Virus record (IMG/VR): IMGVR_UViG_3300032223_001961
Location: 1-22,594 of that record
From: a virus
Length of the DNA: 22,594 bases
Strand: one strand, 5' to 3'
In this document: one piece after another, positions 2,744-17,820 of the stretch
Layout of the letters: the number at the start of each line of letters is the position of its first letter
Position numbering within the stretch: position 1 is the stretch's first letter
The notes under the pieces: generated by a model
The model's input: only the letters and a program-made list of their open reading frames with translations
Database searches by the model: none
Told to the model about the DNA's origin: nothing
Program-made: the position numbers and the translations under genes

Positions 2744-3024
2744 TAACAAATGTCACGGAATTCTTCTACTTTTTAAACAACAACGGATTTGCAGGTTTAC
2801 ATCCAGTTTTTGGTCAATTTGTGAACTGTATAAACGACTTTAACGGTATATGTAACTGTAAAGCAAAGCAAAAAAGTGAAAAGTTATCAACATGTTATTC
2901 GTTGTATAATACATCTTCCCAAATATTGCCTTCGTTTAAAAATCAATTATTTGGGAAGTTTCCATCAGAGTCATCCATTCAATTATCAAACAATGGTACA
3001 GTATTGAATACTATATCTAGATAA
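2737..3024 (+). CDS. Small protein of unknown function
   Basis: This 95-residue protein is not recognised as a named family. It begins with an aromatic helix (EFFYFLNNNGF) and a GLHPVFGQFVNCINDFNG segment, followed by a cysteine pair (CNCK) and a Ser/Asn-rich tail. The tight overlap with the preceding gene (ATG at 2737, upstream stop at 2741-2743) and the codon pattern make it a credible gene. It is the last gene of the plus-strand unit. Its final 8 bases overlap the end of the convergent minus-strand kinase gene. Its last 40 codons contain an 11-bp inverted repeat (2915-2958) that could form a transcript hairpin. Confidence 0.55.
   Translation: MVITNVTEFFYFLNNNGFAGLHPVFGQFVNCINDFNGICNCKAKQKSEKLSTCYSLYNTSSQILPSFKNQLFGKFPSESSIQLSNNGTVLNTISR
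2915..2958. repeat. 11-bp perfect inverted repeat near the convergent gene junction
   Basis: The arms are CTTCCCAAATA at 2915-2925 and TATTTGGGAAG at 2948-2958; three more pairs can form with a one-base bulge. It lies inside the last plus-strand gene, about 60 bases before two convergent genes overlap tail to tail. It may slow or end plus-strand transcription, since there is no intergenic space for a terminator. On neither strand is it followed by a good run of U, so the terminator reading is weak. Confidence 0.35.
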
Positions 3025-3652
3025 TTGCATCTAAACACTTGTTGACGGCATCTTTAAGATAGTCGCATTCTTTCAAATTAATTGCATTGTTTGATGTTGA
3101 TGATATATCCTGCCATTCTACGGTATAGTCAGATAGACCCTTTATAATAGGGTCATTAATTCGTTCATGTTCATTGGGCGGTTCAACATAACGACGCACA
3201 TAAGCATTCTTACTATAAGTTAATGTATATTTGCTTAAATGAACAAGTTTACCGTTTAATTCTTTTTGAATCCAATAAACTTCATCTTTTGGATACTGAA
3301 CATATCGTATATCGGATACAAATATTACGTCACTGGGATCATTTTCTATTTCTTTATATAATAATGATGTCCAATATTGGCCTTCTGTTTGTTTTCGTTT
3401 TACACCACCATACCATACCAAAAATTCACGAAAAATGCTTTTTTCATCGGTATTCTCACTAAAGACATTCAGATTCAACTTCTCTCTGACAAATTGTTCG
3501 CAATCTTTTTTAAGAAAATAAGCAAGTGCATATTGTTTTGCACTATATCCTCGTTTATTCAGTTCTTGTATTGCGATATCACAAAATAAATTTTTACCAG
3601 ATCTAGCTAAACCTGATATACCAATGATTTTTTTAGCATTTATGTTACTCAT
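3017..3652 (-). CDS. Deoxynucleoside monophosphate kinase-like P-loop protein (T4 gp1-like)
   Basis: This 211-residue P-loop protein opens with KIIGISGLARSGKN, a Walker A motif in which the final Ser/Thr is replaced by Asn. Later segments fit the dNMP kinase fold: QYALAYFLK, a WYGG-R-YW stretch, VIFVSDIRYVQYPKDEV (Walker-B-like with the DxRY motif) and LNGKLVHLSK. T4 gp1 phosphorylates deoxynucleoside monophosphates for phage DNA synthesis; this protein is slightly shorter. The start overlaps the gp62-like stop by 8 bases and the 3' end overlaps a convergent gene by 8 bases. Nucleotide supply fits the neighbouring replication genes and the ribonucleotide reductase. Fold is fairly sure; substrate is inferred. 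Confidence 0.65.
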   Translation of the reverse strand: MSNINAKKIIGISGLARSGKNLFCDIAIQELNKRGYSAKQYALAYFLKKDCEQFVREKLNLNVFSENTDEKSIFREFLVWYGGVKRKQTEGQYWTSLLYKEIENDPSDVIFVSDIRYVQYPKDEVYWIQKELNGKLVHLSKYTLTYSKNAYVRRYVEPPNEHERINDPIIKGLSDYTVEWQDISSTSNNAINLKECDYLKDAVNKCLDAII

Positions 3653-4178
3653 CTTTTAATAACTTATCTATCTCCTTCTCAGTTTTTCCATATTTGGAAC
3701 ATATGCTGACAAGGTATTCTATACCAACTTGGTCTTTGAATAGAATTTTACAATAATCTCTTGCTTCATCTTTACCTATTTGTAGGTGAGACGACAACAA
3801 ATCAATCAATTCCTTATTTGTCTTGGATTTGGTTGATTTGATCCATTTACAAAACTTTCGTCCTCTAGGAACCAAGTCACAACAAGTCTTGTAAAATTGT
3901 TTGTTTGGAATTACTTCCATAAACTGGGACAAGTATGCGATACCTTCAATACTATCTGGATCCATACTTAGTCCCATCAAAAGCGTATATTTACTAAAAT
4001 CCCGCTTTTCCTTTTCCGTCAATTGATCATAATAAGAGTCGGATTTAACTTCCCTAATATGATTGATATGATCAAATAGAGTCTTGCTCTTCGTCGATGA
4101 GTTGTTGTTCTCGGTCTTCGATGTCGTCAAGCCTTTCTTTGAAAGAACGGACTTTGGAGTTTTCGCTGGTCTTGCCAT
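3645..4178 (-). CDS. 62: Clamp-loader small subunit, gp62-like
   Basis: This 177-residue protein resembles T4 gp62, the non-ATPase subunit that joins the gp44 ATPase to load the gp45 sliding clamp. The resemblance lies in the order and content of three blocks: RDFSKYTLLMGLSMDP (T4 has YSKFMVENALSQFP), CCDLVPRGRKFCKWIK (T4 has AAVPRGKRYGKWAK) and LQIGKDEARDYCKILFK (T4 has YQVNTNDAINYKSILTK). The first 33 residues are a basic, Ser/Thr/Asn-rich extension with no T4 counterpart. The DNA for that extension is shared in another frame with the upstream membrane protein gene (107-base overlap). A later non-ATG start would shorten the extension. Genes 44 and 45 are not next to it. Confidence 0.8.
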   Translation of the reverse strand: MARPAKTPKSVLSKKGLTTSKTENNNSSTKSKTLFDHINHIREVKSDSYYDQLTEKEKRDFSKYTLLMGLSMDPDSIEGIAYLSQFMEVIPNKQFYKTCCDLVPRGRKFCKWIKSTKSKTNKELIDLLSSHLQIGKDEARDYCKILFKDQVGIEYLVSICSKYGKTEKEIDKLLKDE

Positions 4179-4431
4179 TTGATTTTAATTTATTGATTCT
4201 GGTACGAATTGTTGTGATTACCAATGATATATCCTTTTGATTTTTATACAAAGATTTTATCTCTTCGGACAATTTGACCGTTCTTTCATCAAGAATGTTT
4301 ATTTGTTCCTGCAAAGTACTTATCTTGTATAAAAAAAATAACGCCAGCAGCGTAAACACTACTGGCGTTATTGGGGTATATAACAAAGATAATCCACAAA
4401 CAATTGTCAATATTATAACTTCAATAAGCAT
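4072..4431 (-). CDS. Small membrane-anchored coiled-coil protein, function unknown
   Basis: This 119-residue protein has two N-terminal hydrophobic segments (LIEVIILTIVCGLSLLY and PVVFTLLALFFLY, residues 2-36). A long charged, heptad-like stretch follows (STLQEQINILDERTVKLSEEI and onward) and continues to an acidic C-terminus (DDIEDREQQLIDEEQDSI). It looks like a membrane-anchored coiled coil, perhaps spanin-like or a membrane scaffold, but no family is recognised. The start ATG at 4429-4431 overlaps the end of a 50-residue gene by 11 bases. The last 107 bases overlap gp62 in a different frame. A strong terminator-like hairpin with a U tract lies inside codons 20-34. Confidence 0.55.
   Translation of the reverse strand: MLIEVIILTIVCGLSLLYTPITPVVFTLLALFFLYKISTLQEQINILDERTVKLSEEIKSLYKNQKDISLVITTIRTRINKLKSNGKTSENSKVRSFKERLDDIEDREQQLIDEEQDSI
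4331..4371 (-). terminator. Intrinsic-terminator-like hairpin inside a coding sequence
   Basis: On the minus strand the sequence is ATAACGCCAG (4371-4362), a 14-base loop, the exact complement CTGGCGTTAT (4347-4338), then a run of T overlapping 4338-4331. This has the full form of a Rho-independent terminator: a 10-bp stem, GC-rich at its loop-proximal end, with a U8 tract. It lies within the membrane coiled-coil gene, so it would act as an attenuator between the strongly promoted small basic gene upstream and gp62 and the kinase downstream. Confidence 0.6.
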
Positions 4432-4573
4432 TATCTATTTCGTCGTTAGATTCAAATGTCTTCTTTTTACCGTCGTAATCAGAAAACTTCTGTTTCTTGC
4501 TCTTGTTTTCTTTTTTGGAAGAACCCTTTGAATTCTTTCTAAATTCAGAGTCTCTTCTATATGTTTTTCCCAT
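4421..4573 (-). CDS. 50-residue highly charged protein, function unknown
   Basis: The ATG at 4573-4571 opens a 50-codon frame ending in TGA at 4423-4421. The product is dominated by Lys, Ser, Asp and Glu (begins MGKTYRRDSEF, ends ESNDEIDNAY) and looks unstructured and basic. Its stop lies 11 bases inside the next gene. That overlap, and its position filling the gap between two genes in the same direction, support it. No Shine-Dalgarno is visible and the composition is low complexity, so it remains tentative. Confidence 0.45.
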   Translation of the reverse strand: MGKTYRRDSEFRKNSKGSSKKENKSKKQKFSDYDGKKKTFESNDEIDNAY

Positions 4574-4605
4574 ATACTTTTGACAATTGATGTGTTTATC
4601 TATTT

Positions 4606-4818
4606 TTAGCGCTTGCTAGCAGCCTTCTTAGTGGAACCAATGACACGGGAAAGTGCATTCACCTGTCGTCCATTGAGTTCAATTCGCTTTTCACCCTCGA
4701 CAATAACTAACTTGGTAGCACGCTTGGTACTAGCAAACGGAACAACGATGTGAGCACGAACACCTTGAACGGCGGTCTTAGCAAATGCGGTACGCTTCTT
4801 GTTATTTGTAACAGTCAT
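4606..4818 (-). CDS. Small basic protein, probably abundant, function unknown
   Basis: This 70-residue, strongly basic protein (begins MTVTNNKKRTAFAKTAV, ends STKKAASKR) has a central beta-rich segment (KLVIVEGEKRIELNGRQV). It is not recognised. Expression should be high. A near-consensus promoter lies 57 bases upstream, and the leader ends in AAGGAAAAATAT before ATG, a good ribosome-binding site in a window where most genes lack one. It uses more G and C in its codons than its neighbours. A small DNA- or RNA-binding protein is a fair inference from charge alone. Confidence 0.65.
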   Translation of the reverse strand: MTVTNNKKRTAFAKTAVQGVRAHIVVPFASTKRATKLVIVEGEKRIELNGRQVNALSRVIGSTKKAASKR

Positions 4819-4874
4819 ATATTTTTCCTTTTTTATTTTTTTAGTTTAGTTAGCTTTATTACTAACACAAATTC

Positions 4875-4903
4875 ATCATAAACCATTGTAACCCAATCGT
4901 CAA
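4875..4903 (-). promoter_or_regulatory. Sigma70-like promoter for the small basic protein
   Basis: On the minus strand TTGACG (4903-4898) is followed after exactly 17 bases by TATGAT (4880-4875). Transcription would start near 4868, giving a leader of about 50 bases that carries the AAGGA ribosome-binding site. It lies between the UvdE stop and the small basic gene, where a promoter is expected. Confidence 0.65.
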
Positions 4904-4915
4904 CATGTTTATTTT

Positions 4916-5845
4916 TTATAATTTGTATTGGGTCTCAAATTTTTCAATTGCATAATCTTTAGCCTTGAATTCAAATTCAAAATCAATATCATTAATATGA
5001 TTTTTATACTCAACAGGCAATTCACGCACATACTCGGCATGTGCTCTTGGATTTTTATTGTTGGTATCATTGTCACTAAAATGAAATAATGGACGATATT
5101 TTCCCCACGTACTAATGGCAAGTTTCAATGCTTCATTGGAAGAAAGACTTCCTTTGTTGCATCTAAAATGCAAATTGTCATACGTAATTGGAATATTTGT
5201 CACACTATAAATATGTGTATACAGTTGTTCTACATTCCAACTATTTGGTTTATCTTCATTTTCTAAAACAAGCCTGGATTTTACATTATTAGGCAATGAA
5301 TTGTATACATCAATAAATCGTTTTGCGATTTCTTTGATATCACCTTTATAACAATTCATATGAATATTGATAGGAGCATCATATGATTGAGGAAGATTCA
5401 TAAGATCCATCATATCGCCATGAACAATCAATTCTTCCACAGATTTTTTAACAACATTTGGATTTGCACTAGCAGGCACAACAAATTGATCTGGATGTGT
5501 GCTGCATCGAATATTATGCTTTTTGATAACATCAGCACACAATTGGAATTCACGCTTGATGATATCAAAATTATAATTATTTTCCATACGTAAATTTGCG
5601 TCTGGAAGCGTTTGAAGAGGCATCATGCCACTACTAATTCTATAATTCCATTTTCTGGAAGCACAGAATTCTAGGGTTTTTCTAGTTACAACTACATTGT
5701 TGAGAGTACGGTCTGCTACAATACGTTCCGCACTTTTTCTTTCCAATGCAAGAAACCGTGTTTTGGTCATGGTATTAGCGTGAATACCACTTTCTTGTAA
5801 TTTTAAACTAATGCAACACAATGATTTTTTCATTGTATCAATCAT
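4916..5845 (-). CDS. uvdE: UV-damage endonuclease (UvdE/UvsE family)
   Basis: This protein of about 309 residues has the UVDE TIM-barrel motifs in order: YRISSGMMPL, STHPDQFVV, NIHMNCYKGD, RLVLENEDK, PITYDNLHF and PLFHFSDN. The His, Glu and Asp residues in these motifs coordinate the metal cluster in characterised UVDEs. The enzyme nicks DNA 5' to UV photoproducts and starts excision repair. T4 itself uses the unrelated DenV for pyrimidine dimers. The frame can be extended to a TTG at 5869, but the ATG at 5845 is more likely; another ATG at 5833 would also leave the first barrel strand intact. It follows the DUF4338-like gene closely and precedes the promoter of the small basic gene. Confidence 0.88.
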   Translation of the reverse strand: MIDTMKKSLCCISLKLQESGIHANTMTKTRFLALERKSAERIVADRTLNNVVVTRKTLEFCASRKWNYRISSGMMPLQTLPDANLRMENNYNFDIIKREFQLCADVIKKHNIRCSTHPDQFVVPASANPNVVKKSVEELIVHGDMMDLMNLPQSYDAPINIHMNCYKGDIKEIAKRFIDVYNSLPNNVKSRLVLENEDKPNSWNVEQLYTHIYSVTNIPITYDNLHFRCNKGSLSSNEALKLAISTWGKYRPLFHFSDNDTNNKNPRAHAEYVRELPVEYKNHINDIDFEFEFKAKDYAIEKFETQYKL

Positions 5846-5872
5846 ATACCACAATTTAAAATAAGTCAATGA

Positions 5873-7057
5873 TTATCGTCCAACTTCGTTGAAGTATTTG
5901 GACTTGGCTTCCTCATAGGTCATACCCATCATTTTATTGTAAAATAAAATTTCAGATTTGAGATTATTGTCTGCCTTTAATCGTTTGTATCTTTCAATAG
6001 CTTTGGGTTTCCACCAATCTATAATAGCACCAACATCTTTCTTAAACAATTCTTTCATTACCAATTTATCTTCGGTAATTTTATTTTGAAGAAATTCTTT
6101 GGTATTTTCATAAAAACAACTATAATATACACCTCTTTCATACCCATGAACGAAATCAGATGATTTGATTTTTAATGTTTGAAATATCATGGAAATAACT
6201 CTGTTTTTGGCTCCAGTGACAGGTCCACTTACACCTTCTTTTTGTGTCATGGCTTCATTGTATTGTTGTGTTTTATTCTCTTTCAACCAATGATGCCATA
6301 CTTCATATACACTGTCATCTGGTTTAATAGTCATTTTACCAGCACTACTACCACATTTGTGCCACCATTTTAAACTATTATACATACTGAAACTACCATA
6401 TAGACTGGTAGTGGTTATTCCCACCAAAGTTTCATTATACAATTGTTTCCACAATTCTCTAATTTTGGAACTGGTTACGAGAGCAGCAACTAACTTTCCT
6501 CCTAAGAAATTATAACCAAATGGTTGGGTGCTCATGATACAACTACCAATCGCACTATTTGCGAGCTTCTTGTCATCCAAACGATTTTCAGATGTCCATC
6601 CAATATAGTTATCTCGATCAGTAATAGCGATCACATCACTGGATATACTCACTACTCCCAGATAACGGGGATTTTCTACATTACCATCAGTAATTAAAAG
6701 TTTTATGAATCTGCCGGGAGTTTGTGCATATTCCATCGTATGACAAAATGTTCGCAACATTACCCAGTCCATATCCAAAGAATCATTGTCTACATAAACA
6801 ACGGTGGGATTAATTGCATTTATCTCATCAATAGTAAGTTGTTCGTTATTGATGTCAGTGGGAGTCCAAATTTTTGCTTTTGTCTGTGACGATCTATTTA
6901 TATAACTGCTTAAAGTTTGTACTTCTAACCATTTCTTATAAAATGTCTGTTCTTCAGCAGACATATTTTTTAAAAATTTGAGATTGTCCAGAAACTTTTT
7001 CTTTTCCAAATCAAAATCAAAATCGCCCTCACCAAAAAATTCGTTATTGAAACTCAT
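5873..7057 (-). CDS. DruA/DUF4338-like protein
   Basis: This 394-residue protein has a central block that I recognise, by pattern only, as DUF4338, the domain now named after DruA of the Druantia defence system. It contains YLGVVSISSD, AITDRDNYIGW, then NFLGGKLVAALVTSSKIRELW, VGITTTSLYGSFSMYN and LKWWHKCGSSAGK. The N-terminal 100 residues are charged and helical, and the C-terminus is a basic helical region rich in Lys and Trp. The biochemical activity of this family is not something I can state. It lies in a chain of small overlapping genes and upstream of uvdE, in phage replication context rather than a defence island. Confidence 0.5.
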   Translation of the reverse strand: MSFNNEFFGEGDFDFDLEKKKFLDNLKFLKNMSAEEQTFYKKWLEVQTLSSYINRSSQTKAKIWTPTDINNEQLTIDEINAINPTVVYVDNDSLDMDWVMLRTFCHTMEYAQTPGRFIKLLITDGNVENPRYLGVVSISSDVIAITDRDNYIGWTSENRLDDKKLANSAIGSCIMSTQPFGYNFLGGKLVAALVTSSKIRELWKQLYNETLVGITTTSLYGSFSMYNSLKWWHKCGSSAGKMTIKPDDSVYEVWHHWLKENKTQQYNEAMTQKEGVSGPVTGAKNRVISMIFQTLKIKSSDFVHGYERGVYYSCFYENTKEFLQNKITEDKLVMKELFKKDVGAIIDWWKPKAIERYKRLKADNNLKSEILFYNKMMGMTYEEAKSKYFNEVGR

Positions 7058-7062
7058 AATAT

Positions 7063-7281
7063 TTATTTCTTACGAAAAACTAATTTAAATTTAATAGTCA
7101 ATTCGTTTTTAGTAGACTTAACTTCTTTGATTTCCCATTTTTCTTTCAAATCGTTAAGATACATGTTTCTTCCATCTTCAATATACTCCAACGGAAGTTC
7201 CATATCATACAATTCTTTTTCTTTGTATACCAGAAACTTTTTCTTAAATTTATCCAAATATAGTATGATAATATCTTTCAT
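7063..7281 (-). CDS. Small protein of unknown function (72 residues)
   Basis: This charged 72-residue protein, beginning MKDIIILYLDKFKKKF, has a likely beta-rich fold ending in KNELTIKFKLVFRKK. No family is recognised. The ATG overlaps the stop of the upstream gene as ATGA (7278-7281), and its end is 5 bases from the DUF4338-like start. This tight packing supports it as a real gene of the same operon. Confidence 0.55.
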   Translation of the reverse strand: MKDIIILYLDKFKKKFLVYKEKELYDMELPLEYIEDGRNMYLNDLKEKWEIKEVKSTKNELTIKFKLVFRKK

Positions 7282-7475
7282 ATATGCATCTGTAATTTCA
7301 CCACTTTATAGAGTTCGTCATCATACATATTGGTGTCAAACTCAAACCATATGTTATCTTCACTCAAATCTACCTTTATAAGGACATTATCCTTTAAAGA
7401 AAAGATGCCGTATATCGTAACGGATACGATAGACGGCACCTTATTATTACCAATCTTTTTTGGTTTTTTAGGCAT
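7278..7475 (-). CDS. Small protein of unknown function (65 residues)
   Basis: This 65-residue protein has a basic N-terminus (MPKKPKKIGNNK), then alternating hydrophobic residues suggesting a beta sheet and an acidic middle (VDLSEDNIWFEFD). It starts 8 bases inside the preceding gene, whose last codons supply an AAAAGG ribosome-binding site, and ends with an ATGA overlap to the next gene. A long hairpin followed by a U-rich stretch lies in codons 13-27. It is plausible as a gene because of the coupled start and stop; function is unknown. Confidence 0.5.
   Translation of the reverse strand: MPKKPKKIGNNKVPSIVSVTIYGIFSLKDNVLIKVDLSEDNIWFEFDTNMYDDELYKVVKLQMHI
7395..7438 (-). terminator. Terminator-like hairpin inside the 65-residue gene
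   Basis: Arms at 7437-7425 and 7419-7407 pair over 13 positions with one mismatch and a 5-base loop (GCCGTCTATCGTA against TACGATATACGGC on the minus strand). They are followed by TCTTTTCTTT. It begins about 30 bases after the stop codon of the strongly promoted winged-helix-like gene, the expected place for its terminator. It is also coding sequence for the next gene. Confidence 0.5.
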
Positions 7476-7860
7476 TTACCTTTTCTGATTTGGTTGTGGT
7501 CGAAGCAACCGGTGCGGTTGTCGGTTCAGTAGTGGCATTTGTCTTGATATTGACAACATTGACAGTATAACGGTCATGTAGAAGAATTTCTGCACTCTTA
7601 GCGGCCTCAATAGCCTTTTGTGAAACCGGATTCATTGCGAATGCGATTGTGGGGCGTCCCTTGCCACCATTAATAGTTCCGAGATCTGAAATAAGTCCTT
7701 GGTCAAGAGCATTCTTGAGACGAACTCGCAACGTGATTTCCTTGAAATCAGGATTACTTGCGTGCAACGTCTTGACGGTAAAGAATGAATCCACATTCGG
7801 CCATTCAATCACCTGATTGGTCTTGTTCTTACGATCAGTCTTCTTAATTACATTACTCAT
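7468..7860 (-). CDS. Small winged-helix-like protein, probably abundant
   Basis: This 130-residue protein has residues 25-95 that read like a winged helix: SFFTVKTLHASNP, then EITLRVRLKNALDQGLISDL, then a Gly/Arg-rich wing (GTINGGKGRPTIAFAM). A Thr/Pro/Ala-rich tail follows. This is a fold guess from pattern, not a named family. It has the best promoter in the window (TTGACA-17-TAAATT) and a good AAGGAAAAA ribosome-binding site, and uses more G and C codons than its neighbours, so it should be made in quantity. A dyad between the promoter elements could be an operator, so autoregulation is possible (inference). Alternatives are an abundant nucleoid or structural protein. Confidence 0.6.
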   Translation of the reverse strand: MSNVIKKTDRKNKTNQVIEWPNVDSFFTVKTLHASNPDFKEITLRVRLKNALDQGLISDLGTINGGKGRPTIAFAMNPVSQKAIEAAKSAEILLHDRYTVNVVNIKTNATTEPTTAPVASTTTKSEKVNA

Positions 7861-7914
7861 ATTAGTTTTTCCTTTTTATTTTTTATTTGTTGTTTAATTT
7901 TAACCTACCACTTA

Positions 7915-7943
7915 AATTTAACACACTCAACGAGTTGTGTCAA
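7915..7943 (-). promoter_or_regulatory. Strong sigma70-like promoter with an operator-like dyad
   Basis: On the minus strand TTGACA (7943-7938) is followed after 17 bases by TAAATT (7920-7915). The -35 element overlaps the stop of the VWA gene. Between the two elements, ACACAACTC and GAGTGTGT form an imperfect dyad around GTT, well placed for a repressor. The predicted start near 7908 gives a leader of about 48 bases with AAGGA before the ATG. Confidence 0.65.
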
Positions 7944-10018
7944 TCCTTTTGTAAAAACATTTTATTAATAGTTTTAGCAATATCAAAAATGTTTTGAATA
8001 TTCACAAATGATGCATTTGTTCCATACATTGTTTTGAACATATTACGAATTTTAACATCATATTCGTCCGTAGATAGACGTGAAAATGCATATTGTTCTT
8101 TAATAAAATAACTCAAAATTTTATATCCACGATCACGAATTTTATTGACCTGTTGACGTGTATGTGCTGCCGCAGGTTCTCCAGAATAAGAAATAGAATT
8201 TCCATTCACATCCGTATAACTCATCGTCGGTTGACCGTCACTAAAGTTCAAAAAATAGAAATTTTCGTCAGTCGATACCGGCAATTCATTCATGATTGAT
8301 TCAAAACAAAGACCTTCAGGAGTACATCCATGTGGACGAATATATTTGAATAGATTCTTCACTTTACTAATTTTATCAGTATTTGAATCATATGCAATAA
8401 CCACATATGGTAATTCAGTTCCTTTAGAAGCGATAAAAGTTGTTCTAAAACTAACGCTCACACGTAGATTGTCAATCATTGATGCAGCTTTACAAATAGC
8501 AACTACAGCAGTCATGGTGGATAACCACTTTTGTCCTCCCATACTGGAACTTGCATCTACACTGATATGTATATATGATTTGTTATATTTATCCACGTTC
8601 AATGAGTAGAAAATATTTTCATTTTCAAAACTCAATTCGGATAAAATACGCTTATCCACCCGGCCAGTAGGCTTACGCATATACTTTGTAGTGTTACTTT
8701 CATTACGTAATTGTAATTTTCTACCCAATACAGTCCCTTTGACAATTCCCAAATTAACAGCACCAGTAACACTGCGATCCGCGACTGGGAGGTGTTTCAT
8801 GCCATCTTTGGCAGTCAATGGAAACAATTCATTACTAATCAATTCATAGTTCATTCGTTTGACAACGATGCAATCTACACTATGAGAACCATCTGCTTTA
8901 ATGTAAGTAGATCCCACAGTTGACAATATAATACCTGACTTGTCAATAGAATCCAAAATTTTCTTTTCTTTAGCAGACACCTTCTTCTTTTTAACGTTTC
9001 CTTCCAAAAAATCTTTTTGTTTTTCGAGAGCCTTTTTGATTTTGGCAATCTTGTTATCAGAGATTTTTGGGTCACTTCCAATATTGTCTTTAACAATGTC
9101 CTCTTTGGAAGATGTGACTTGATTGGTATCACCACCAAGAACATCGTCTATAGATTCGTCTTGTTTATCGGATTCAACGGAATCTTCCGATTTCTCCTCA
9201 GATTTATTTTCTGTAGAAGACTTCTTGGAAGCATTCTTATTGTCTGACGATGGAGATGGTGACTTTGCTCCATCGGATTGATGTTCCGTTATATTTTTTA
9301 AAATAATTTCACACACTTCGTATGCAAGATACAATCGATCTTTTGGAGTTGTTAACCTATCAATATTTGATAAATTGATAAGTTTTGCAATCTCACGTAG
9401 ATTCGGCAAAGCTTCAAGATCTGTATTGATATTATTAAAATTAATAATACGAGCTTCGTAACTTGCAATGCTTGGAGTTCTGTATAATTGACTCTTCAAC
9501 ATTTCGTCAATTTTAACACTATTGAAATACGTGTCATACAATGCAGTATAATATCCACGATAACCAGGAGCATTTTTATATACAAACTGATCGATGTAAC
9601 GATCCTCAATATAGTTGAGGATATGCTTTACAAAACCATGAATATCTTCTTTTGAAATTTGCAGTTTCTCGGCATATTTATACAAATTACTTGGGACTTT
9701 CTGCCAGATCGTTTTGAAAATATCAAAATCAGACAAGATGACGTGACTACCTTCGTGTAGAGCAAGTCCCACGGCGGTATCAAAATCATCTTTTTTTACA
9801 ATGTCGGAAGAGATATACACAGATTTTCCATCCGTAGAATTGTCTCCCCCGTCATTAAAAAATACAGGAATATTTTTGTTGGTCAAAATATGAACAAAGT
9901 TACTAATAGCTCTACGAGCCATAGACAATTTGATCAGATCTGTATTAATTGCATTTTGATCATCAATTTCATCAAATTCAAAATCATCCAACCAATAATC
10001 ACTATATGTCGTATTCAT
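7940..10018 (-). CDS. Metallopeptidase-like/VWA protein, partner of the MoxR-type ATPase
   Basis: This 692-residue protein has three parts. Residues 1-250 contain a zinc-metallopeptidase-like HExxH (HEGSH at 88-92) followed by NYIEDRYID at 135-143, whose Glu could be the third ligand; this layout also occurs in CobT-type proteins. Residues 250-360 are a Ser/Lys/Glu/Asp-rich linker. The C-terminus is a von Willebrand factor A domain with a complete MIDAS: DASSS at 488-492, the Thr of GCTPEG at 566 and the Asp of FSDG at 594. It begins 10 bases after the AAA+ gene ends, the classic MoxR-VWA pair arrangement, in which the ATPase and metal-binding VWA protein act together as a chaperone or remodelling machine. 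The target is unknown. Confidence 0.8.
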   Translation of the reverse strand: MNTTYSDYWLDDFEFDEIDDQNAINTDLIKLSMARRAISNFVHILTNKNIPVFFNDGGDNSTDGKSVYISSDIVKKDDFDTAVGLALHEGSHVILSDFDIFKTIWQKVPSNLYKYAEKLQISKEDIHGFVKHILNYIEDRYIDQFVYKNAPGYRGYYTALYDTYFNSVKIDEMLKSQLYRTPSIASYEARIINFNNINTDLEALPNLREIAKLINLSNIDRLTTPKDRLYLAYEVCEIILKNITEHQSDGAKSPSPSSDNKNASKKSSTENKSEEKSEDSVESDKQDESIDDVLGGDTNQVTSSKEDIVKDNIGSDPKISDNKIAKIKKALEKQKDFLEGNVKKKKVSAKEKKILDSIDKSGIILSTVGSTYIKADGSHSVDCIVVKRMNYELISNELFPLTAKDGMKHLPVADRSVTGAVNLGIVKGTVLGRKLQLRNESNTTKYMRKPTGRVDKRILSELSFENENIFYSLNVDKYNKSYIHISVDASSSMGGQKWLSTMTAVVAICKAASMIDNLRVSVSFRTTFIASKGTELPYVVIAYDSNTDKISKVKNLFKYIRPHGCTPEGLCFESIMNELPVSTDENFYFLNFSDGQPTMSYTDVNGNSISYSGEPAAAHTRQQVNKIRDRGYKILSYFIKEQYAFSRLSTDEYDVKIRNMFKTMYGTNASFVNIQNIFDIAKTINKMFLQKD

Positions 10019-10028
10019 ATATTTGAGA

Positions 10029-10967
10029 TTAAAATGGAGGTTGAGAATTGTTGAGAGGATCGTTAATTAGATTGTTAGGAGCGGTATTTGGAATGTATTT
10101 TTGAACAACCTGTTTCATATAGGTACGTTCACTGTCAACTCCACCGTCATTCATGAAATTTGGATAAATAGCAGTTTCTGCGATTTCATTCAAATCAAAT
10201 CCATCCAAGATAAGTTCGCTCATTTCAACTGTAGAACGAGTAGGAATGAAATTGGTGATCTTACTGTCTTCAGACTTGATTTGTTCACGGGTAAGATTAG
10301 CAATTTCACATACAGCCGAAAGAATTTTTAGTGAAGATTCATCGGTAATAGAAAAACGAGACTTCAAATATTCAAATTCCGTTTTGTAATCCATAGGAGT
10401 CATTTCAATCTTGATCGGAAAACGACTCATTAGTGCTCGATCCATAACGCGGGTAGCAGTATATTCATTGCCAATGTTAGCGGTTCCAATAAAACACACA
10501 CCTTCTGCAACCTTAACAACTTCACTGTCTTGCTTTTCGTCCAGACGCAAATAACGTTGAATATCATCCAATACAGTCATCAACACATTCCATGCATCAT
10601 GGTGGGCACGGCTAATTTCATCAAGAAGAATTACTGCGTTAGGGGTCTTGATTGCCTTAACAAAGGTAGATTCACTAAAAAATGTTCCGGCATCTTTATT
10701 ATAATGCGTGTTACCAATAAGTGACGAACGTGCATCTTGCATGGCACCAAGATTGAAATAAAAATATGGACGATCCAATGCTTGAGTAACAGACTGTGCG
10801 GCAAGCGTCTTGCCACATCCAGTGGGTCCAACAATTAAAATGTTCTTTCCACGATACACAGATCGCACCAAATACTTCCATTTGGTGTTATCAATTACCA
10901 GTTCCTTTGGTTTGAGTGTATGACTTTCTTTGATTAAGGATTTGATGTCGATGTTCTTTTTCTTCAT
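10029..10967 (-). CDS. MoxR/CobS-type AAA+ ATPase
   Basis: This 312-residue AAA+ protein has Walker A GPTGCGKT at 47-54, Walker B ILLDEIS at about 113-119, sensor 1 in GTANIG around 164 and an arginine in ALMSRF at about 182. The short N-terminus and overall length match MoxR/CobS-type ATPases, which form rings and work with a VWA partner. Phages of the T4 group have been annotated with CobS-like ATPases; a role in cobalt chelation is not implied. The gene follows a strong terminator and a candidate promoter, and the VWA gene comes straight after it, so the two probably form a transcription unit. No clear Shine-Dalgarno precedes the ATG. Confidence 0.85.
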   Translation of the reverse strand: MKKKNIDIKSLIKESHTLKPKELVIDNTKWKYLVRSVYRGKNILIVGPTGCGKTLAAQSVTQALDRPYFYFNLGAMQDARSSLIGNTHYNKDAGTFFSESTFVKAIKTPNAVILLDEISRAHHDAWNVLMTVLDDIQRYLRLDEKQDSEVVKVAEGVCFIGTANIGNEYTATRVMDRALMSRFPIKIEMTPMDYKTEFEYLKSRFSITDESSLKILSAVCEIANLTREQIKSEDSKITNFIPTRSTVEMSELILDGFDLNEIAETAIYPNFMNDGGVDSERTYMKQVVQKYIPNTAPNNLINDPLNNSQPPF

Positions 10968-11761: not shown

Positions 11762-12544
11762 TCAAAAATACAAATTATCAATGTTATTTTCAATTGTTAT
11801 TTGTTCTATTTCTTCAACATAAGAACCAACCTTTGGATAGGGTAATATTGGATGTTTTAATGATTTTACGAGCTTTTTGTTCTCTATTTTTTTGGAAATG
11901 AACTTAATATAACGGTGTTTACCACTTTCTTTCTTTCTCCAAAAAGTCTTTCCTATCTTTATTTTTAACTTATCAACACCGTGACTTCCCCACTTGGAAT
12001 ATACACTTCGGCTATGTATCCACTTGTAATCAGGCGGACCTGTCAAACTAACACTATAATTAGGCATCAACGCAATATCCACATAATTGTCTCCTTGATA
12101 CAAAAATCCAGTTGCTTGATAGATTTTGCCTACATGTCCAACTTCACTGTCTGCATAACTTAATATGCACTTTATATCTGGGTAATCCTTGTTTATACAA
12201 CGAAACGATTCGGCAATACAATAACTCTCAATATTTTTACCATAACCATCTTCAATCCAAAGACGAGTCAATTCTAATACATTATCATTGGTTAATTTAC
12301 TACTGATGCTGTTACTGCAATTTCTGCCTACGGAATTTCCATAGACTAGAACCCCAATCAATTTAGAATTAAATCCACCAAAAAATGTACTTTCAGTGTA
12401 TTCTTTATAATAAACACCATATGCAACACTACACAAAGTCCATTTGTGGGTATAATGATTCTTTTCTATTAATTGTCTAGCTATTTTCTTATCAATCGGT
12501 TTTAAATAAACCAATGAGGTATCACAGTAAGATTGTTCCATCAT
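11762..12544 (-). CDS. Mom-like adenine modification protein (GNAT-related fold)
   Basis: This 260-residue protein resembles the phage Mu Mom family, which converts adenine in DNA to N6-carbamoylmethyladenine and so protects it from restriction. The visible signature is a HYTH segment near residue 30, then VLELTRLWIEDGYGKNIES (about 89-107), and SYADSEVGHVGKIYQATGF (about 129-147). This SRL-SYAD-GHxGxxYQA pattern is the family hallmark. The C-terminal 90 residues are basic and may bind DNA. No Com-like translational activator is seen next to it. A candidate promoter overlaps the end of the PAS gene. Two adjacent ATG codons (12544 and 12541) could start it. Membership is probable; the actual modification is not shown. 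Confidence 0.75.
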   Translation of the reverse strand: MMEQSYCDTSLVYLKPIDKKIARQLIEKNHYTHKWTLCSVAYGVYYKEYTESTFFGGFNSKLIGVLVYGNSVGRNCSNSISSKLTNDNVLELTRLWIEDGYGKNIESYCIAESFRCINKDYPDIKCILSYADSEVGHVGKIYQATGFLYQGDNYVDIALMPNYSVSLTGPPDYKWIHSRSVYSKWGSHGVDKLKIKIGKTFWRKKESGKHRYIKFISKKIENKKLVKSLKHPILPYPKVGSYVEEIEQITIENNIDNLYF

Positions 12545-12552: not shown

Positions 12553-12581
12553 ATGTTATAACAAAACAACGAATTAGTCAA
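12553..12581 (-). promoter_or_regulatory. Candidate sigma70-like promoter for the Mom-like gene
   Basis: On the minus strand TTGACT (12581-12576), 17 bases, then TAACAT (12558-12553). The -35 element overlaps the stop of the PAS gene. The expected start near 12546 is only about 2 bases before the ATG, so the transcript would be nearly leaderless. TTGTTAT occurs twice in this short gap. Confidence 0.35.
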
Positions 12582-13161
12582 CAATTTTTATAGTTCCCAT
12601 GTACCCATTGTTATCTACTGATTTATTGGCAATACAATATACGTTATATGTTTTACCGTCTTTATCCACCATTCGGAATAAATTTTCAGAATCTCTGCTC
12701 TCTTTAACACAACTTTCCCAATAGTCACTGACTCTTTCACGGTCATCTGGATGTATTGCATTCTTCCAACCATGACCCAAAAAGTATTTATCGTCTCGTT
12801 TTAACCAATCACAATACTTTTTGTTTGCCCATACACATTTACCGTCATTGTCACTTTCAAATACAATTATATCCTCATTATCCAATATCCAACGTTGTCT
12901 GTCAAAAATCCGAGTGGTTAATAGTGTATTTTCAGATAATTGTTTATCCATTTTATTGATCTTGTCTTTGATACTAGATCCATGATTTGGAGTCAATTCT
13001 TCAAATATATGGTTTATTTTCTTGTGCATTTCTTTTCTCTCAGATATTTCCTTTGATATCACCCTAAAAAGTTTATATATAGCAGTCAATGCACTACCAA
13101 CCGCCAATATTATTTGGGCTGCCTTTGAAGTATCTTCATTGAATAGATTTGAAAATTCCAT
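12574..13161 (-). CDS. Membrane-anchored PAS-domain protein without an output domain
   Basis: This 195-residue protein has an N-terminal hydrophobic segment (AAQIILAVGSALTAIYKLF, about 14-32), then a charged helical linker to about residue 90 (SKEISERKEMHKKINHIFEE and on), suited to a coiled coil. It ends in a PAS fold: DIIVFESDNDGKCVWANKKY, FLGHGWKNAIHPDDRERV, LFRMVDKDGKTYNVYCIA and GYMGTIKIVD. The HPDDR block is typical of PAS_3-type sensors. There is no kinase, cyclase or response domain after it, so it must act through protein contacts, perhaps with host signalling proteins (inference). It is flanked by a terminator upstream and the Mom-like gene downstream. Confidence 0.75.
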   Translation of the reverse strand: MEFSNLFNEDTSKAAQIILAVGSALTAIYKLFRVISKEISERKEMHKKINHIFEELTPNHGSSIKDKINKMDKQLSENTLLTTRIFDRQRWILDNEDIIVFESDNDGKCVWANKKYCDWLKRDDKYFLGHGWKNAIHPDDRERVSDYWESCVKESRDSENLFRMVDKDGKTYNVYCIANKSVDNNGYMGTIKIVD

Positions 13162-13236: not shown

Positions 13237-14295
13237 TTACAGTTTGAATCCGTCAAATGCACCTTCACTGATGGTGTTATCTACACCCTTTACATAACTA
13301 CTCAATACAGTTTCTTGAGGAGCAACTTGTAATTTCTTACTATCGTAATAACTATCCAGCCAACCGGCCAACGGATTTGTCTTAACATTTGGATACAATT
13401 TCTTGTAACCAATGCTGGTTAATCTGTTGTTGGCAAGCCATTCAATATAGTTTTTTAGACTTTCAGAGGTCAACCCAACAAGATTTCCCTTGCTGAATAG
13501 GTAATCTGCCCAATCCTTTTCAGCTTCTACGGCAATTTCATATGCCTTGTATACTTTGTCTTCGTTCTTTTTAACAATTTCTTGGAATCCTTCATCGGCG
13601 TTATTTGCCCAATTCTTCATGATGTTTTGAGTGATTGCCACGTGCAGATTTTCATCACGACTAATGAACTTGATAATTTTGCTATTACCTTCCATTTTTC
13701 CACGATAACCAAAATAGAAACTACAAGCAAATGATACATAAAAAATCAACCCTTCGGTAATTTGAGTTGCCAACACAGCATCAAATAATTGTTGTCTTAC
13801 GTCATCTGACGGAGTCAACAGTTCATCATATTTTTTACTAATAGCATTAGCACGATTCACAATTTCTTGATCTTCCAATATGCTATCAAAGAACTTTGTT
13901 GCGTCAGGATACACGTTATTTAAAATATAGGTGTAACTGTTGCTGTGAATGGTTTCAAAGAAACTCCAAGTATTCATACAAATTTCCAATTCACTATTGG
14001 TAACATGTTTCATCAACTCATGAATGCTGCGACTCAACATACTGTCGGTCATGGTCTGAAACTTAAGATTGCTATCAAACACAAATCGTTCTTCGTCAGA
14101 TAGATTTTTGTAGTCGCTGATATCTTTGACCAACGAAACTTCTTGGGGTCTCCAAAAGAAATTTAATTGTTGATCGTAAAGTTCATAGAACTTAGGATAT
14201 CGTATCTTATCATAACGTTGTAATGACAGATCCTCTCCCAAAAACATGGGATTTCTTAATTGATCTATGTTCTTTTTATTTAATACAGTTTTCAT
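13237..14295 (-). CDS. nrdB: Class Ia ribonucleotide reductase, small (radical) subunit
   Basis: This 352-residue protein houses the diiron-tyrosyl radical used by NrdA to reduce ribonucleotides. The ligands are visible and in register with E. coli NrdB: Asp84 (MTD), Glu114 and His117 (ETIHS), Tyr121 (SYTYI, the radical tyrosine), Glu181 (EGLIFYVSFACSF), Glu215 and His218 (RDENLH). The start is the ATG at 14295, not the in-frame TTG at 14307, because GGAGG lies 5 bases before it. It follows the NrdA C-half stop by 12 bases and precedes a strong terminator, so it is the last gene of the nrd transcript. It is intact and carries no intein. Confidence 0.96.
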   Translation of the reverse strand: MKTVLNKKNIDQLRNPMFLGEDLSLQRYDKIRYPKFYELYDQQLNFFWRPQEVSLVKDISDYKNLSDEERFVFDSNLKFQTMTDSMLSRSIHELMKHVTNSELEICMNTWSFFETIHSNSYTYILNNVYPDATKFFDSILEDQEIVNRANAISKKYDELLTPSDDVRQQLFDAVLATQITEGLIFYVSFACSFYFGYRGKMEGNSKIIKFISRDENLHVAITQNIMKNWANNADEGFQEIVKKNEDKVYKAYEIAVEAEKDWADYLFSKGNLVGLTSESLKNYIEWLANNRLTSIGYKKLYPNVKTNPLAGWLDSYYDSKKLQVAPQETVLSSYVKGVDNTISEGAFDGFKL

Positions 14296-14307
14296 ATATA
14301 CCTCCAA

Positions 14308-15396
14308 TTATAGAGCACATGCTCCACCAGCACAACCTTGTTCTTCAACAATAGGTTGTTTTATTTCGTTAGTTTTATTTTCCATTGCAGTTTGCTTATC
14401 ACCATCGTCAGTATTAGCATAATATAGATTCTTCAATCCATACTTGTATGCCAACAAAATATCTTTAATAACAACTTCAACAGGAACCTTATTCTTTTCG
14501 TACCTAGACGGAATATAGTAAGTATTGACACTGATACTCATATCCGTGAACTTTTGAATGGCCGCAGCAACTTTCAAATAACCTTCGTTGCTTGGCATGT
14601 CAAATGCAAATGTATAATTTTCCTTATACTTGTCAATTCCGGGCACAACCACAGGCAATATGTTTGATTTGCTGCCCTTGAAACTGATCGCACTACGAGG
14701 GGGTTCAATTCCGTTGGTACTGCTTTGAATTACGCTACTTGATTCCACAGGCATACAAGCAGTGAGGGTACTATGACGCATTCCATACTTTTTGATATCT
14801 TCACGAAGAGATTCCCAATCGCAATGTAATTTTTCAGTAATAAATTCGTCAACGTCTCTTTTGTATGTATCAATTGGAAGAATTCCTTGGCTAAATTTGG
14901 TTCTGTCAAACTTCTCACATTTACCAAGTTCTTTGGCCATTTGAACACTAGCCTTTATCAAATAATAACTAGTCTTTTCCATCCAAGAGGCAACCAAGTT
15001 TGGAGCTTTCTTGTCCCAATACTTGAGTCCTTCTTTAGCCAACAATGCTGCCAAATTGCTTACACCTACACCCAAACTACGACGCTTCTTAGCGAAATTC
15101 TCAGCAGCAGGCACAAAGTAATTTTGATGTTCAATCAGTGCATCCAACATTCTGACAATAATATCACATACACTTTCCATTTCGGTATCATCCTTGATTT
15201 CCAACCAATTTAATGCTGCCAAAATACAAACGCCAATTTCTCCATTTGGATCGTTAACGTCGTTAATTGCGATTAGTGGATGATTGACCTCAAGGCAATT
15301 ATGAACTAATATATTATTTGCATAAAAATTATGATTATCTTTTACAGTAATGTCATAGACATCCGATTTTTCTTTTATTTTTTTAATTTTTAACAT
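14308..15396 (-). CDS. nrdA: Ribonucleotide reductase large subunit, C-terminal half with split-intein C-fragment
   Basis: This 362-residue protein begins with 33 residues of intein C-fragment and continues as NrdA from Cys34. The extein begins CLEVNHPL, so the thiyl-radical cysteine (C439 in E. coli) and the glutamate E441 are here. Also present are the second redox cysteine (GEIGVCILAALNW), NGIEPPR, the radical-transfer tyrosines (LKNLYYANTDDG) and the C-terminal cysteine pair (GCAGGACAL). It starts 14 bases inside the end of the endonuclease gene, which contains an AGAGGA about 10 bases before the ATG. Joined to the N-half, the enzyme has 433 plus 329 residues, 762 in all, against 761 in E. 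coli. It cannot work without splicing. Confidence 0.95.
   Translation of the reverse strand: MLKIKKIKEKSDVYDITVKDNHNFYANNILVHNCLEVNHPLIAINDVNDPNGEIGVCILAALNWLEIKDDTEMESVCDIIVRMLDALIEHQNYFVPAAENFAKKRRSLGVGVSNLAALLAKEGLKYWDKKAPNLVASWMEKTSYYLIKASVQMAKELGKCEKFDRTKFSQGILPIDTYKRDVDEFITEKLHCDWESLREDIKKYGMRHSTLTACMPVESSSVIQSSTNGIEPPRSAISFKGSKSNILPVVVPGIDKYKENYTFAFDMPSNEGYLKVAAAIQKFTDMSISVNTYYIPSRYEKNKVPVEVVIKDILLAYKYGLKNLYYANTDDGDKQTAMENKTNEIKQPIVEEQGCAGGACAL
15298..15396 (-). other. Split intein C-fragment (33 residues) in NrdA
   Basis: Residues 1-33 (MLKIKKIKEKS to ILVHN) contain intein block F (VYDITVKDNHNFYANN) and block G (ILVHN) with the terminal asparagine that cyclises. The next residue is the +1 cysteine. 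The sequence closely resembles, from memory, the C-fragment of the NrdA-2 split intein described from marine metagenomes. The coding DNA is markedly AT-rich relative to the extein beside it. Confidence 0.93.
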
Positions 15397-16144
15397 GTTT
15401 CAAAAGTCCTCTTTTTAAGTTTAAAATTTTTATTTTTTCATCATCCGAATATAACATGTAATTATTTTTACCATTGTTATACCAATTTCTACCAATTATT
15501 GATTTAGATAAGTTTTCACATCTCGTTTTGTCTCTCTTATCATACACGAAATCAGAATCATTAAAATCAATTTTTCTATTTTTTAATTCACTCTTTAGAT
15601 GTTTTAAAAAACCAATTCTACCCTCGCCGTTGAATCTAAATTTTGTGTAGTTTACAGGTAATTTTTTTGTTTTGCAAAAATTAAACCATTGTCTGAATAT
15701 TAATTTTTTATTAGATTTATAATACTCAATGGCTTCTTCAATTATCTGGGTGTCTGTGTATCCAGAATAATTAGGATTTTTATCTCCAGTTGAAAGTTTT
15801 TTTCGTATTTTAATAAATTTTTTATATTTTTTATTATCTAAAGCGTTTATTATATCTCCACCATCTCCACCTTCCGTTGAATTTAATCCACATTTAAATG
15901 TATCATATTGTTTAATGTAATTTTTTTCTAATTGTTTAGCTTCAATCTCATCGTTACATTCAATTAATATTTTAGATATTATATTTTTAGGTCCATGTTT
16001 TCTGATATGTCTATAGAATTTTGTATCTATACCGCTTAATGCATTTAAAATATGTTTATGTAATCTTTTTTCTAGAGACTTTGACGTATATCCGATATAA
16101 GATTTGTCACAAATAGTATGCATATAGATTATATATTTTTTCAT
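15383..16144 (-). CDS. GIY-YIG homing endonuclease, free-standing, inside the split nrdA locus
   Basis: This 253-residue protein has its GIY-YIG domain at residues 1-95. YIIYMHTICDKSYIGYTS gives the two-part signature (IIY in place of GIY, then YIG). The catalytic arginine is in LEKRLHKH, the glutamate in EAKQLEKNYIKQYD and the asparagine in CGLNSTEGGDGG. A NUMOD3-like GDKNPNYSG follows, then helical DNA-binding regions and a C-terminal WYNNGKNNYML motif common in phage homing enzymes. It would cut nrdA alleles lacking the insertion and drive homing of the cassette. The start has no Shine-Dalgarno and sits 6 bases after a 16-bp hairpin, so translation should be low. Its end overlaps the C-half start by 14 bases. 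Confidence 0.92.
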   Translation of the reverse strand: MKKYIIYMHTICDKSYIGYTSKSLEKRLHKHILNALSGIDTKFYRHIRKHGPKNIISKILIECNDEIEAKQLEKNYIKQYDTFKCGLNSTEGGDGGDIINALDNKKYKKFIKIRKKLSTGDKNPNYSGYTDTQIIEEAIEYYKSNKKLIFRQWFNFCKTKKLPVNYTKFRFNGEGRIGFLKHLKSELKNRKIDFNDSDFVYDKRDKTRCENLSKSIIGRNWYNNGKNNYMLYSDDEKIKILNLKRGLLKHVKN

Positions 16145-16149
16145 ATGAA

Positions 16150-16197
16150 TGAATGGTTTACTTCATATAAGTATGAATCAGTGAAGTAAACCATTCA
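16150..16197 (-). repeat. 16-bp perfect inverted repeat (hairpin) before the endonuclease start
   Basis: Arms 16150-16165 and 16182-16197 are exact complements (GAATGGTTTACTTCA on the plus strand, plus one outer pair) with a 16-base loop. In minus-strand RNA the 3' arm ends 6 bases before the endonuclease ATG and occupies the ribosome-binding region. No U tract follows, so RBS masking or mRNA processing is more likely than termination. Confidence 0.75.
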
Positions 16198-16203
16198 ATT
16201 ATT

Positions 16204-17820
16204 TTATATAATATCTAATATATCCGATTCATTTAAATCTTTAGCTTTCACATATCCTCGGTTTTTAGTAAAAATTAAATGATCTTCGGTACATTTTATT
16301 TCAAATCCCGTTTCTTCATCAATAATTTCTATCAAATTCACATCAATTCCGGTTATATTTGAATTTAAAACTTCTTTATAAGAAATTTCTTGAGTGTTTA
16401 TATCCTTTGACAATACACTTATGCTTTTATTTTGTTTAAATATTTCGTCTAGTTCTTTCATTGACAATTTCATCGGAATATTATCAACGATACAAGATAC
16501 TTGAGTGTCTGGATGTAAACAAAGATTGCTTGTATCTACTTGATCAAGCCAACTACCATGTTCATTTGCATGATCCACAAACATTGTATAAATTCTACCA
16601 GTTTCAAGACGTTCTTTTGCAAGCAATCCCATCAGTTCTCTTGCAGGAATCTTTTTCTTAAATTTGATATTTTTGTTGGCCTCTGCCTTTTCATACAATT
16701 CTTTGAAATTTGGCAATCCAAAATTATTCCAAAGACTTGGGCATTCATGATAACTGAACAGTGTCACATCCTTATTTTGGAGGAATCGTTCAAAAATTAA
16801 TTTATCTAACCCAATGCAATAGTCTAGTTTACGAACGCGATTGTCATCTGTTCCTGCATTGTTTTTCAACACAAGAATGTCCATAATATCGTAATGGAAC
16901 CAAGCGAAATTTACAGTAGCACTACCACCACGAATTCCGTTTTGATGACAACTCTTTACAGTGGATTCAAATGCTTTACTAAATGGAATTGGTCCTGTGT
17001 GTATCACTTCACCGTTCCTAATAGGAGCATTTGTAGCACGCAATCGGCTCAAGTTTAATCCAATACCGTAACGACTTGCAGTTGCAAATCCTACAGCACT
17101 ATTGTTAGCAAATATACTGCGTAACGTATCGTCAACGGTAAACAATGAGCAACTTGCATAACTCTTCATAACAGAACGAACGCCTGCCATGATTGGGGTG
17201 GGTAAGTTAATTTTATGTTTACTGAAGTATGTGTATGCCTTCTTTACATAATCAAGACGATTCTCCTTATAATCTTTAAAGAATGTCATTGCAATCAACA
17301 TATATGCAAACTGTGGAGTTTCGTATATTTTCTTAGTTGATCTGTTTTGAATCAAGTATTTGTCACACAATTGCTTGATTCCAGCATATGTAAAATTCAA
17401 ATCTCTATCATGTTTTAGAAATTCATCAATTTTGTCAAATTCTTGTTTTGTATACCATTCTAAAATTTCCCCGTCGTATACCAAATTGGATACATTTTCC
17501 TTGACAAGATCATACAATTTAGGCGGATTTTTACCTCCCCACACTTCTTTACGAAGATGATAATTTAACAATCGTGAGGCAACATATTGATAATTTGGCT
17601 TTTCTTCGCTAATCAAATTTGCCGCAGCTTCAATCAACATACCGTGTATATCTTTGGAAGCCATGCCATCAAAAAACGACAAATGTGCATTCATTGCAAC
17701 TTCTTCAAAACTAACATTTTTTACGTTTTCAGTTGCCCATTGCAATATTTTGTTGATTTTGTCTGCGTTAAACTTTTCAACTTTTCCACTACGCTTTTTA
17801 ATAAAAATTTCTTTATTCAT
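16204..17820 (-). CDS. nrdA: Ribonucleotide reductase large subunit, N-terminal half with split-intein N-fragment
   Basis: Of 538 residues, 1-433 are NrdA and 434-538 are intein N-fragment. The start of the protein is an ATP-cone (IFIKKRSGKVEKFNADKIN to about residue 95), the allosteric activity domain. The barrel follows, with redox cysteine Cys224 (SYASCSLF), GIGLNLSRLRA, a GGSATVNFAWFHYDIMDILVLK-like stretch and ending VDTSNL. The asparagine of the catalytic N-x-C-x-E motif is on this fragment; the cysteine and glutamate are on the other. The gene follows a terminator after the helicase; no clear promoter or Shine-Dalgarno is visible. It is class I NrdA, interrupted by a known type of element and not a decayed gene. 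Confidence 0.95.
   Translation of the reverse strand: MNKEIFIKKRSGKVEKFNADKINKILQWATENVKNVSFEEVAMNAHLSFFDGMASKDIHGMLIEAAANLISEEKPNYQYVASRLLNYHLRKEVWGGKNPPKLYDLVKENVSNLVYDGEILEWYTKQEFDKIDEFLKHDRDLNFTYAGIKQLCDKYLIQNRSTKKIYETPQFAYMLIAMTFFKDYKENRLDYVKKAYTYFSKHKINLPTPIMAGVRSVMKSYASCSLFTVDDTLRSIFANNSAVGFATASRYGIGLNLSRLRATNAPIRNGEVIHTGPIPFSKAFESTVKSCHQNGIRGGSATVNFAWFHYDIMDILVLKNNAGTDDNRVRKLDYCIGLDKLIFERFLQNKDVTLFSYHECPSLWNNFGLPNFKELYEKAEANKNIKFKKKIPARELMGLLAKERLETGRIYTMFVDHANEHGSWLDQVDTSNLCLHPDTQVSCIVDNIPMKLSMKELDEIFKQNKSISVLSKDINTQEISYKEVLNSNITGIDVNLIEIIDEETGFEIKCTEDHLIFTKNRGYVKAKDLNESDILDII
16207..16521 (-). other. Split intein N-fragment (105 residues) in NrdA
   Basis: The fragment starts at Cys434 (CLHPDTQVSCI, block A). 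It ends with block B-like KCTEDHLIFTKNRGYVKAKDL, holding the TxxH motif, just before the stop. The first residue is the nucleophile for the N-to-S acyl shift. The shape and wording (IIDEETGFEIKC, NRGYVKAKDL) are very close, from memory, to the NrdA-2 N-fragment. No endonuclease domain is included; that function is in the separate GIY-YIG gene. Confidence 0.93.

Follow-up and report, generated by a model that had tools for sequence, protein, structure and literature searches.

A phage class Ia nrdA broken at its radical cysteine by a putative split intein and a GIY-YIG endonuclease gene

What becomes of a ribonucleotide reductase gene that is broken between the codons of its catalytic motif? 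We address this question at a locus of IMG/VR record IMGVR_UViG_3300032223_001961, a stretch of virus DNA of 22,594 nucleotides that was analysed over its whole length (hereafter, the window) and whose source is an uncultured T4-like phage; T4-like replication genes are present on it (Pfam). Here nrdA, the gene for the large subunit of class Ia reductase, is divided between two open reading frames (ORFs). We propose with high confidence that it is a fractured gene whose product is trans-spliced at the radical cysteine into one NrdA of 762 amino acids (aa), with a GIY-YIG homing element between its halves. The gene order on the minus strand is NrdA-N/N-intein ORF, GIY-YIG ORF, C-intein/NrdA-C ORF and nrdB, with these features:

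16522-17820 (-): NrdA N-extein, 433 aa, comprising the ATP cone, the all-alpha domain and the first part of the barrel (Pfam ATP-cone, Ribonuc_red_lgN and Ribonuc_red_lgC; phmmer)
16207-16521 (-): N-intein, 105 aa, CLHPDTQ...CTEDH...SDILDII (partial Pfam Intein_splicing; match to 8ubs; conserved in related records L002-L004)
16150-16197 (-): RNA hairpin, 16-bp stem and 16-nucleotide loop, after the N-half stop and ahead of the endonuclease start
15383-16144 (-): putative free-standing GIY-YIG endonuclease gene, 253 aa (Pfam GIY-YIG, E 4e-8)
15407-15412 (-): AGAGGA, Shine-Dalgarno-like site of the C-half within the 3' end of the endonuclease ORF (from sequence)
15298-15396 (-): C-intein, 33 aa, MLKIKK...ILVHN (Pfam Intein_splicing 125-155; near-invariant in relatives)
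15295-15297 (-): +1 Cys codon, Cys439 equivalent (alignment to E. coli NrdA 438-760)
14308-15297 (-): NrdA C-extein, 329 aa, stop included (Pfam Ribonuc_red_lgC; phmmer)
13237-14307 (-): nrdB, small subunit, next gene downstream (Pfam Ribonuc_red_sm)

The break falls at the radical cysteine

The first half-ORF (17820-16204, minus strand; 538 aa) encodes 433 aa of NrdA up to VDTSNL, passes into the 105-aa N-intein at CLHPDTQ, whose first codon is TGT at 16521-16519, and closes with a stop codon at 16206-16204. The second (15396-14308, minus strand) has its own ATG at 15396, encodes the 33-aa C-intein MLKIKKIKEKSDVYDITVKDNHNFYANNILVHN and resumes NrdA at CLEVNHPL, with TGC at 15297-15295 as the +1 Cys codon. 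The N-half aligned with residues 1-441 of E. coli NrdA (phmmer E 6e-128) and the C-half with residues 438-760 (E 4e-97). Window C224 is equivalent to C225 of E. coli, and N432 (codon 16527-16525, position 16527 being its first base) to N437; in the C-half, the +1 Cys corresponds to C439, the Glu two residues on to E441, C57 to C462 and the tail GCAGGAC to C754/C759. All of the class Ia large-subunit residues (C225, N437, C439, E441, C462 and the C-terminal CxxxxC) are present in these alignments to E. coli NrdA.

In E. coli NrdA, C439 is the carrier of the thiyl radical. The original prediction had read the end of the N-half (VDTSNL) and the start of the C-half (CLEV) as joining to SNLCLE, with N437, C439 and E441, and the phmmer alignments bear this out to the codon: the insertion parts N437 from C439 and E441, the splicing nucleophile at +1 is the radical Cys, and alignment to E. 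coli NrdA places that cysteine nowhere else. No second intact nrdA, which would have counted against the prediction, was found in the 22.6-kb window record, and four intein-free relatives of 131-172 kb carry one nrdA copy each. NrdD was looked for in seven related records and not found. It is plausible, as was also predicted, that neither NrdA fragment is partially active alone. Our partial coverage of the literature returned no explicit earlier statement that the +1 splicing residue is the radical cysteine. The locus would offer a clean natural example of one residue that both completes protein splicing and serves as the essential catalytic residue of the spliced enzyme, and closely related uninterrupted alleles, together with one allele from which the homing endonuclease gene (HEG) is deleted, are at hand for comparison.

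A split intein with class 1 motifs

The two ends of Pfam Intein_splicing were matched on two separate ORFs (E 1.4e-4 and 1e-7, both short of the cut-off for the whole domain, as halves should be), and the N-intein matched the solved NrdJ-1 intein (PDB 8ubs; E 3e-11). The class 1 splicing motifs C1, block B TEDH, terminal HN and +1 C are all found in the window. With a stop at 16206-16204 ending the first half and a separate ATG at 15396 opening the second, the intein halves lie on separate ORFs, as they do in the 66 contigs described below, and we predict a split (trans) intein with class 1 motifs rather than a contiguous one. NrdA(1-433)-IntN(105 aa) and IntC(33 aa)-NrdA(434-762), where IntN and IntC are the N- and C-intein, would be translated separately and associate via the intein halves. 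The class 1 route in trans would then lead from a Cys1 thioester through transfer to the +1 Cys to Asn cyclisation, yielding one 762-aa NrdA in which the +1 Cys becomes the active-site radical cysteine. Relatives of the window locus could also supply protein ligation with new split inteins.

Introns are frequent in phage nrd genes (PMC3653736), and the interruption might accordingly be a group I intron; alternatively, assembly errors could make an unsplit (cis) intein seem interrupted. Both forms of this explanation are most improbable, given that Rfam returned no match and that the two-ORF layout, in which the C-half has its own ATG, recurs in 66 separate contigs. The group I intron was rejected for lack of an Rfam match in the window and in the related loci L082, L004 and L003.

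The shared cysteine might also let splicing regulate reductase activity, as a switch that responds to redox state or sets timing. Use of the +1 Cys in both reactions would couple the supply of deoxynucleoside triphosphates to splicing, and the intein of Aquifex NrdB, which sits between iron ligands, raises iron loading (PMC8772380). Against such a switch, Cys1 and the Cys ahead of block B are the only conserved intein cysteines that we found in the close family, leaving no additional residue to form a trap; the intein is absent from most close relatives; and very fast splicing is reported for some related split inteins (PMC7090010). We consider the switch very unlikely, and redox control of splicing is unsupported.

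Empty sites and recurrence of the insertion

Uninterrupted alleles are common: 76 of 80 close relatives in IMG/VR have the motif SNLCLEV unbroken (SNLCVEV in the variant L067), and in the other four (L002, L003, L004 and L059) the same split intein interrupts the identical peptide bond. Flanking DNA is nearly alike in the empty allele L060 and in the window, with AGATACAAGCAATCT[A/T] before the junction and TGCCTTGA[A/G]GTCAATCATCC after it. The junction is not a chance reading, because uninterrupted relatives share nearly identical DNA on either side with nothing inserted.

A profile scan around the C-intein junction gave 497 candidate stretches, the best 80 of which were analysed; both flanks of the junction could be read in 66 contigs, which include four of the 80 close relatives. 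All 66 are split, with SNL/C on the N side and [HS]N/C on the C side (the slash marking the junction), and a GIY-YIG ORF belonging to a single connected family is present in 65, L003 being the exception. Cys1 is present in 66/66 (the N-side junction C was required by the search pattern, the +1 residue left free), block B TxxH in 64/66, a terminal HN in 62/66 or SN in 4/66, and the +1 Cys in 66/66. The NrdA proteins of the split loci form 13 clusters at 85% identity. SNL/C proves to be a hot spot in phages and not a unique site. The same inteins were also looked for in cellular NrdA: of 15 matches in bacterial and archaeal genomes, all eight with a readable junction were in other genes, and this possibility was rejected.

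One earlier claim proved overstated, namely that the locus is an extreme case of an intein choosing the most conserved residue. Of the 600 columns in the phage NrdA set, 116 are invariant, and among 588 stretches of 12 residues the one at the site comes only 156th, a ranking drawn from sequences selected with the junction pattern. The recurrence of the site in 66 contigs, and the position of the intein one residue later in other phages, weaken the claim further.

More complex alleles occur among the relatives. In L004 (IMGVR_UViG_3300028569_000073, 3727-9570), nrdA is broken by two split inteins, at SNL/C and at MPVES/C; the ORF that follows the second break (8473-9570) has no Pfam match. The same record has a gp41-like helicase gene whose C-terminal part begins with an intein ending HN/SWVLSKLG in the Walker A motif.

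Mobility of the element and loss of the endonuclease gene

The middle gene is separate from both half-ORFs and retains R27, E73 and N88, which are invariant in the alignment; it is predicted to be a free-standing GIY-YIG homing endonuclease. This enzyme would cut uninterrupted nrdA at the catalytic codons, and repair after the cut would copy the entire IntN-HEG-IntC block into the empty allele.

We compared five window-type loci (the window, L002, L003, L004 and L090), leaving aside the C-extein comparison with L004, which is distorted by its second intein. Whichever pair was compared, synonymous divergence (dS) was lower in the N-intein and the HEG than in the N-extein. For L004 and L090, dS was 0.50 in the extein, 0.07 in the N-intein and 0.09 in the HEG; for the window and L003 it was 2.4 (a saturated value) in the extein and 0.94 in the N-intein. 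Element divergence so far below that of the flanking gene argues that the IntN-HEG-IntC element spreads horizontally. The ratio of nonsynonymous to synonymous divergence was 0.08-0.18 in the N-intein and 0.09-0.20 in the HEG, which indicates purifying selection on both. Third-position identity was highest in the N-extein bin beside the site in most pairs, a signal too noisy for co-conversion to be retained.

In L003 the HEG is gone, and the half-genes lie 70 bases apart with both open. The gap aligns to the last ~20 HEG codons with a frameshift (63 columns, with 6 mismatches and a single-base gap), and a Shine-Dalgarno-like AAGGA, the counterpart of AGAGGA in the window, remains just ahead of the C-half ATG. 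This deletion indicates that the HEG can be lost imprecisely provided that the start signal of the C-half stays; in the window, the C-half ORF and the endonuclease ORF overlap by 14 bases. The original prediction held that imprecise loss of the element means loss of the reductase, an argument whose general form is already published (PMC2814812). Because the intein is split and the endonuclease gene lies outside both half-ORFs, the argument stands for the intein halves and fails for the HEG.

Several points weigh against the reading of a trans-spliced NrdA with a mobile element between its halves. The window record is a 22.6-kb fragment and not a whole genome; the invariance of S-N-L-C-E in the NrdA set stems in part from the search pattern with which junctions were located; and values of dS >1 are saturated, which leaves the direction of the contrast, but not its size, reliable. 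Furthermore, we infer splicing, cleavage and hairpin function, whereas the anatomy, exact site, empty-site alleles, conservation and apparent horizontal spread are read from the sequences themselves.

The leader of the endonuclease gene

Between the N-half stop and the GIY-YIG ORF is a 59-base leader with a strong hairpin (-20.3 kcal/mol, z -5.5; 0 of 200 shuffles were as stable). Its stem is kept in relatives via paired changes, GAATGG/CCATTC becoming GAGTGG/CCACTC. The hairpin probably limits translation of the HEG from the nrdA transcript. In the scheme known for I-TevI, the start is hidden by folding of the early transcripts but left exposed in the late ones (PMC2988022). At other loci (L203-L274), 60 leaders ahead of the GIY-YIG ORF were 25 bases or longer, and 53 of these contained the exact T4 late promoter TATAAATA, usually with a hairpin; counted as distinct leaders, 26 of 32 had it, compared with 0.6 of 32 expected by shuffling. 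These promoter-plus-hairpin leaders fit the I-TevI scheme.

The window leader has the hairpin upstream of the endonuclease start, as in I-TevI-type genes, but a sense-strand TATAAATA was looked for in it and not found, so the full scheme is not shown for the window. The only candidate for a late promoter there was TATAAGTA on the opposite strand, which occurs in the window no more often than by chance and was rejected. The idea that the leader contains a copy of the homing site acting as an operator, as for I-TevI, was likewise rejected, the local similarity being no better than that of shuffles (p 0.06-0.29). The TATAAGTA on the strand opposite the genes is borne by the hairpin loop (16166-16173, plus strand), and at the equivalent position L002 has TATAAATA in antisense.

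Relation to known fractured genes

The window locus appears to join an already known arrangement, that of fractured genes, in which a Vsr-like nuclease is said to be common. Such genes reportedly combine split inteins with free-standing endonucleases (Dassa et al. 2009, NAR 37:2560, as cited in PMC3653736 and PMC7090010). Ocean data include seven nrdA and two nrdJ fractured-gene cases with split inteins, which resemble the window in having a conserved DNA-metabolism gene, a split intein and a separate endonuclease gene between the halves (PMC3653736). The AceL NrdHF split intein (PMC7891396) is likewise found on a phage-like contig, in a fractured reductase gene with a GIY-YIG gene between the halves, but it is a class 3 intein in the small subunit, whereas the window intein is class 1, with Cys1, in the large subunit. 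The N-intein of NrdJ-1 is homologous to that of the window, although its host gene is a class II reductase and not class Ia.

Among named phages, nrdA of Yersinia phage TG1 (L084) has a split intein at SNL/C and HN/CAEIAIP, and its +1 residue is the radical Cys, as in the window; its middle gene differs, being annotated as an HNH endonuclease and having no Pfam match. Klebsiella phage KP13-7 (L082) and Campylobacter phages CC_R7/CPt10 (L083, L085) have a split intein in the same nrdA loop, and KP13-7 shares with the window a related GIY-YIG gene preceded by a hairpin. Their junction, SNLC/C or TNLC/C, is one residue later, and therefore the radical Cys is residue -1.

In KP13-7 (2653-8183) nrdA is in four pieces. 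An HNH_3 ORF follows VKSCSQG, where Rfam found no intron; the split intein at SNLC/C comes with GIY-YIG; and a second split intein, MPGE/C ... HN/TSS, comes with a further ORF.

Breaks near the catalytic loop without an intein

Aeromonas phage Aeh1, with nrdA-A/nrdA-B and mobE, resembles the window in that an endonuclease gene breaks nrdA in its active-site region; it differs in having no intein and in being broken after GNLCIEIALP, past the radical Cys. Its NrdA is reported to function as two pieces (PMC2988022). A similar situation is seen in IMG/VR records L092-L100, where GIY-YIG genes 35-46% identical to that of the window lie in nrdA. Their N-piece includes SNLC.E[IV]LLP and then continues as a tail akin to the one on Aeh1 NrdA-A; the C-piece, where the record contains it, has no intein at its start.

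These cases raise the possibility that the two NrdA pieces of the window, too, act unspliced as a two-piece enzyme and that the intein halves are relics. We consider this very improbable. The N-piece of L092-L100 keeps the radical Cys and the window break precedes it, so that the window shows neither of the features of Aeh1-type genes in pieces (no intein; radical Cys in the N-piece), and window-type intein motifs are intact and under purifying selection. Trans-splicing thus remains the preferred reading for the window.

The two-piece function of Aeh1 NrdA, taken together with L092-L100, indicates that a break near the catalytic loop can be tolerated by splicing or by assembly. We tentatively suggest, while holding it somewhat doubtful, that one GIY-YIG lineage repeatedly breaks nrdA at the catalytic codons and that the gene survives either by trans-splicing at the radical Cys or, when broken a few residues later as in L092-L100, by unspliced, Aeh1-like two-piece assembly. 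Both survival routes might then be traced to the target choice of the endonuclease; if so, it would be the endonuclease target, and not splicing chemistry, that makes the radical cysteine the nucleophile of splicing. The range of alleles (an empty site, a split intein with or without its HEG, an intein placed one residue further on, and pieces without an intein) makes testable how homing endonucleases pick catalytic codons and how split inteins arise.

Neighbouring genes

Downstream of nrdB on the minus strand, a Mom-like DNA modification protein is encoded at 11762-12544 (Pfam E 2.8e-45; PHROG 1384), and a CobS-like/MoxR-type ATPase (PHROG 249) adjoins a 692-aa protein at 7940-10967; the latter has no PHROG match and by eye resembles a VWA/CobT partner. 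A small PAS-domain protein (12574-13161, minus strand) lies between nrdB and the Mom-like gene, a position occupied in L003 by an ORF that looks related.

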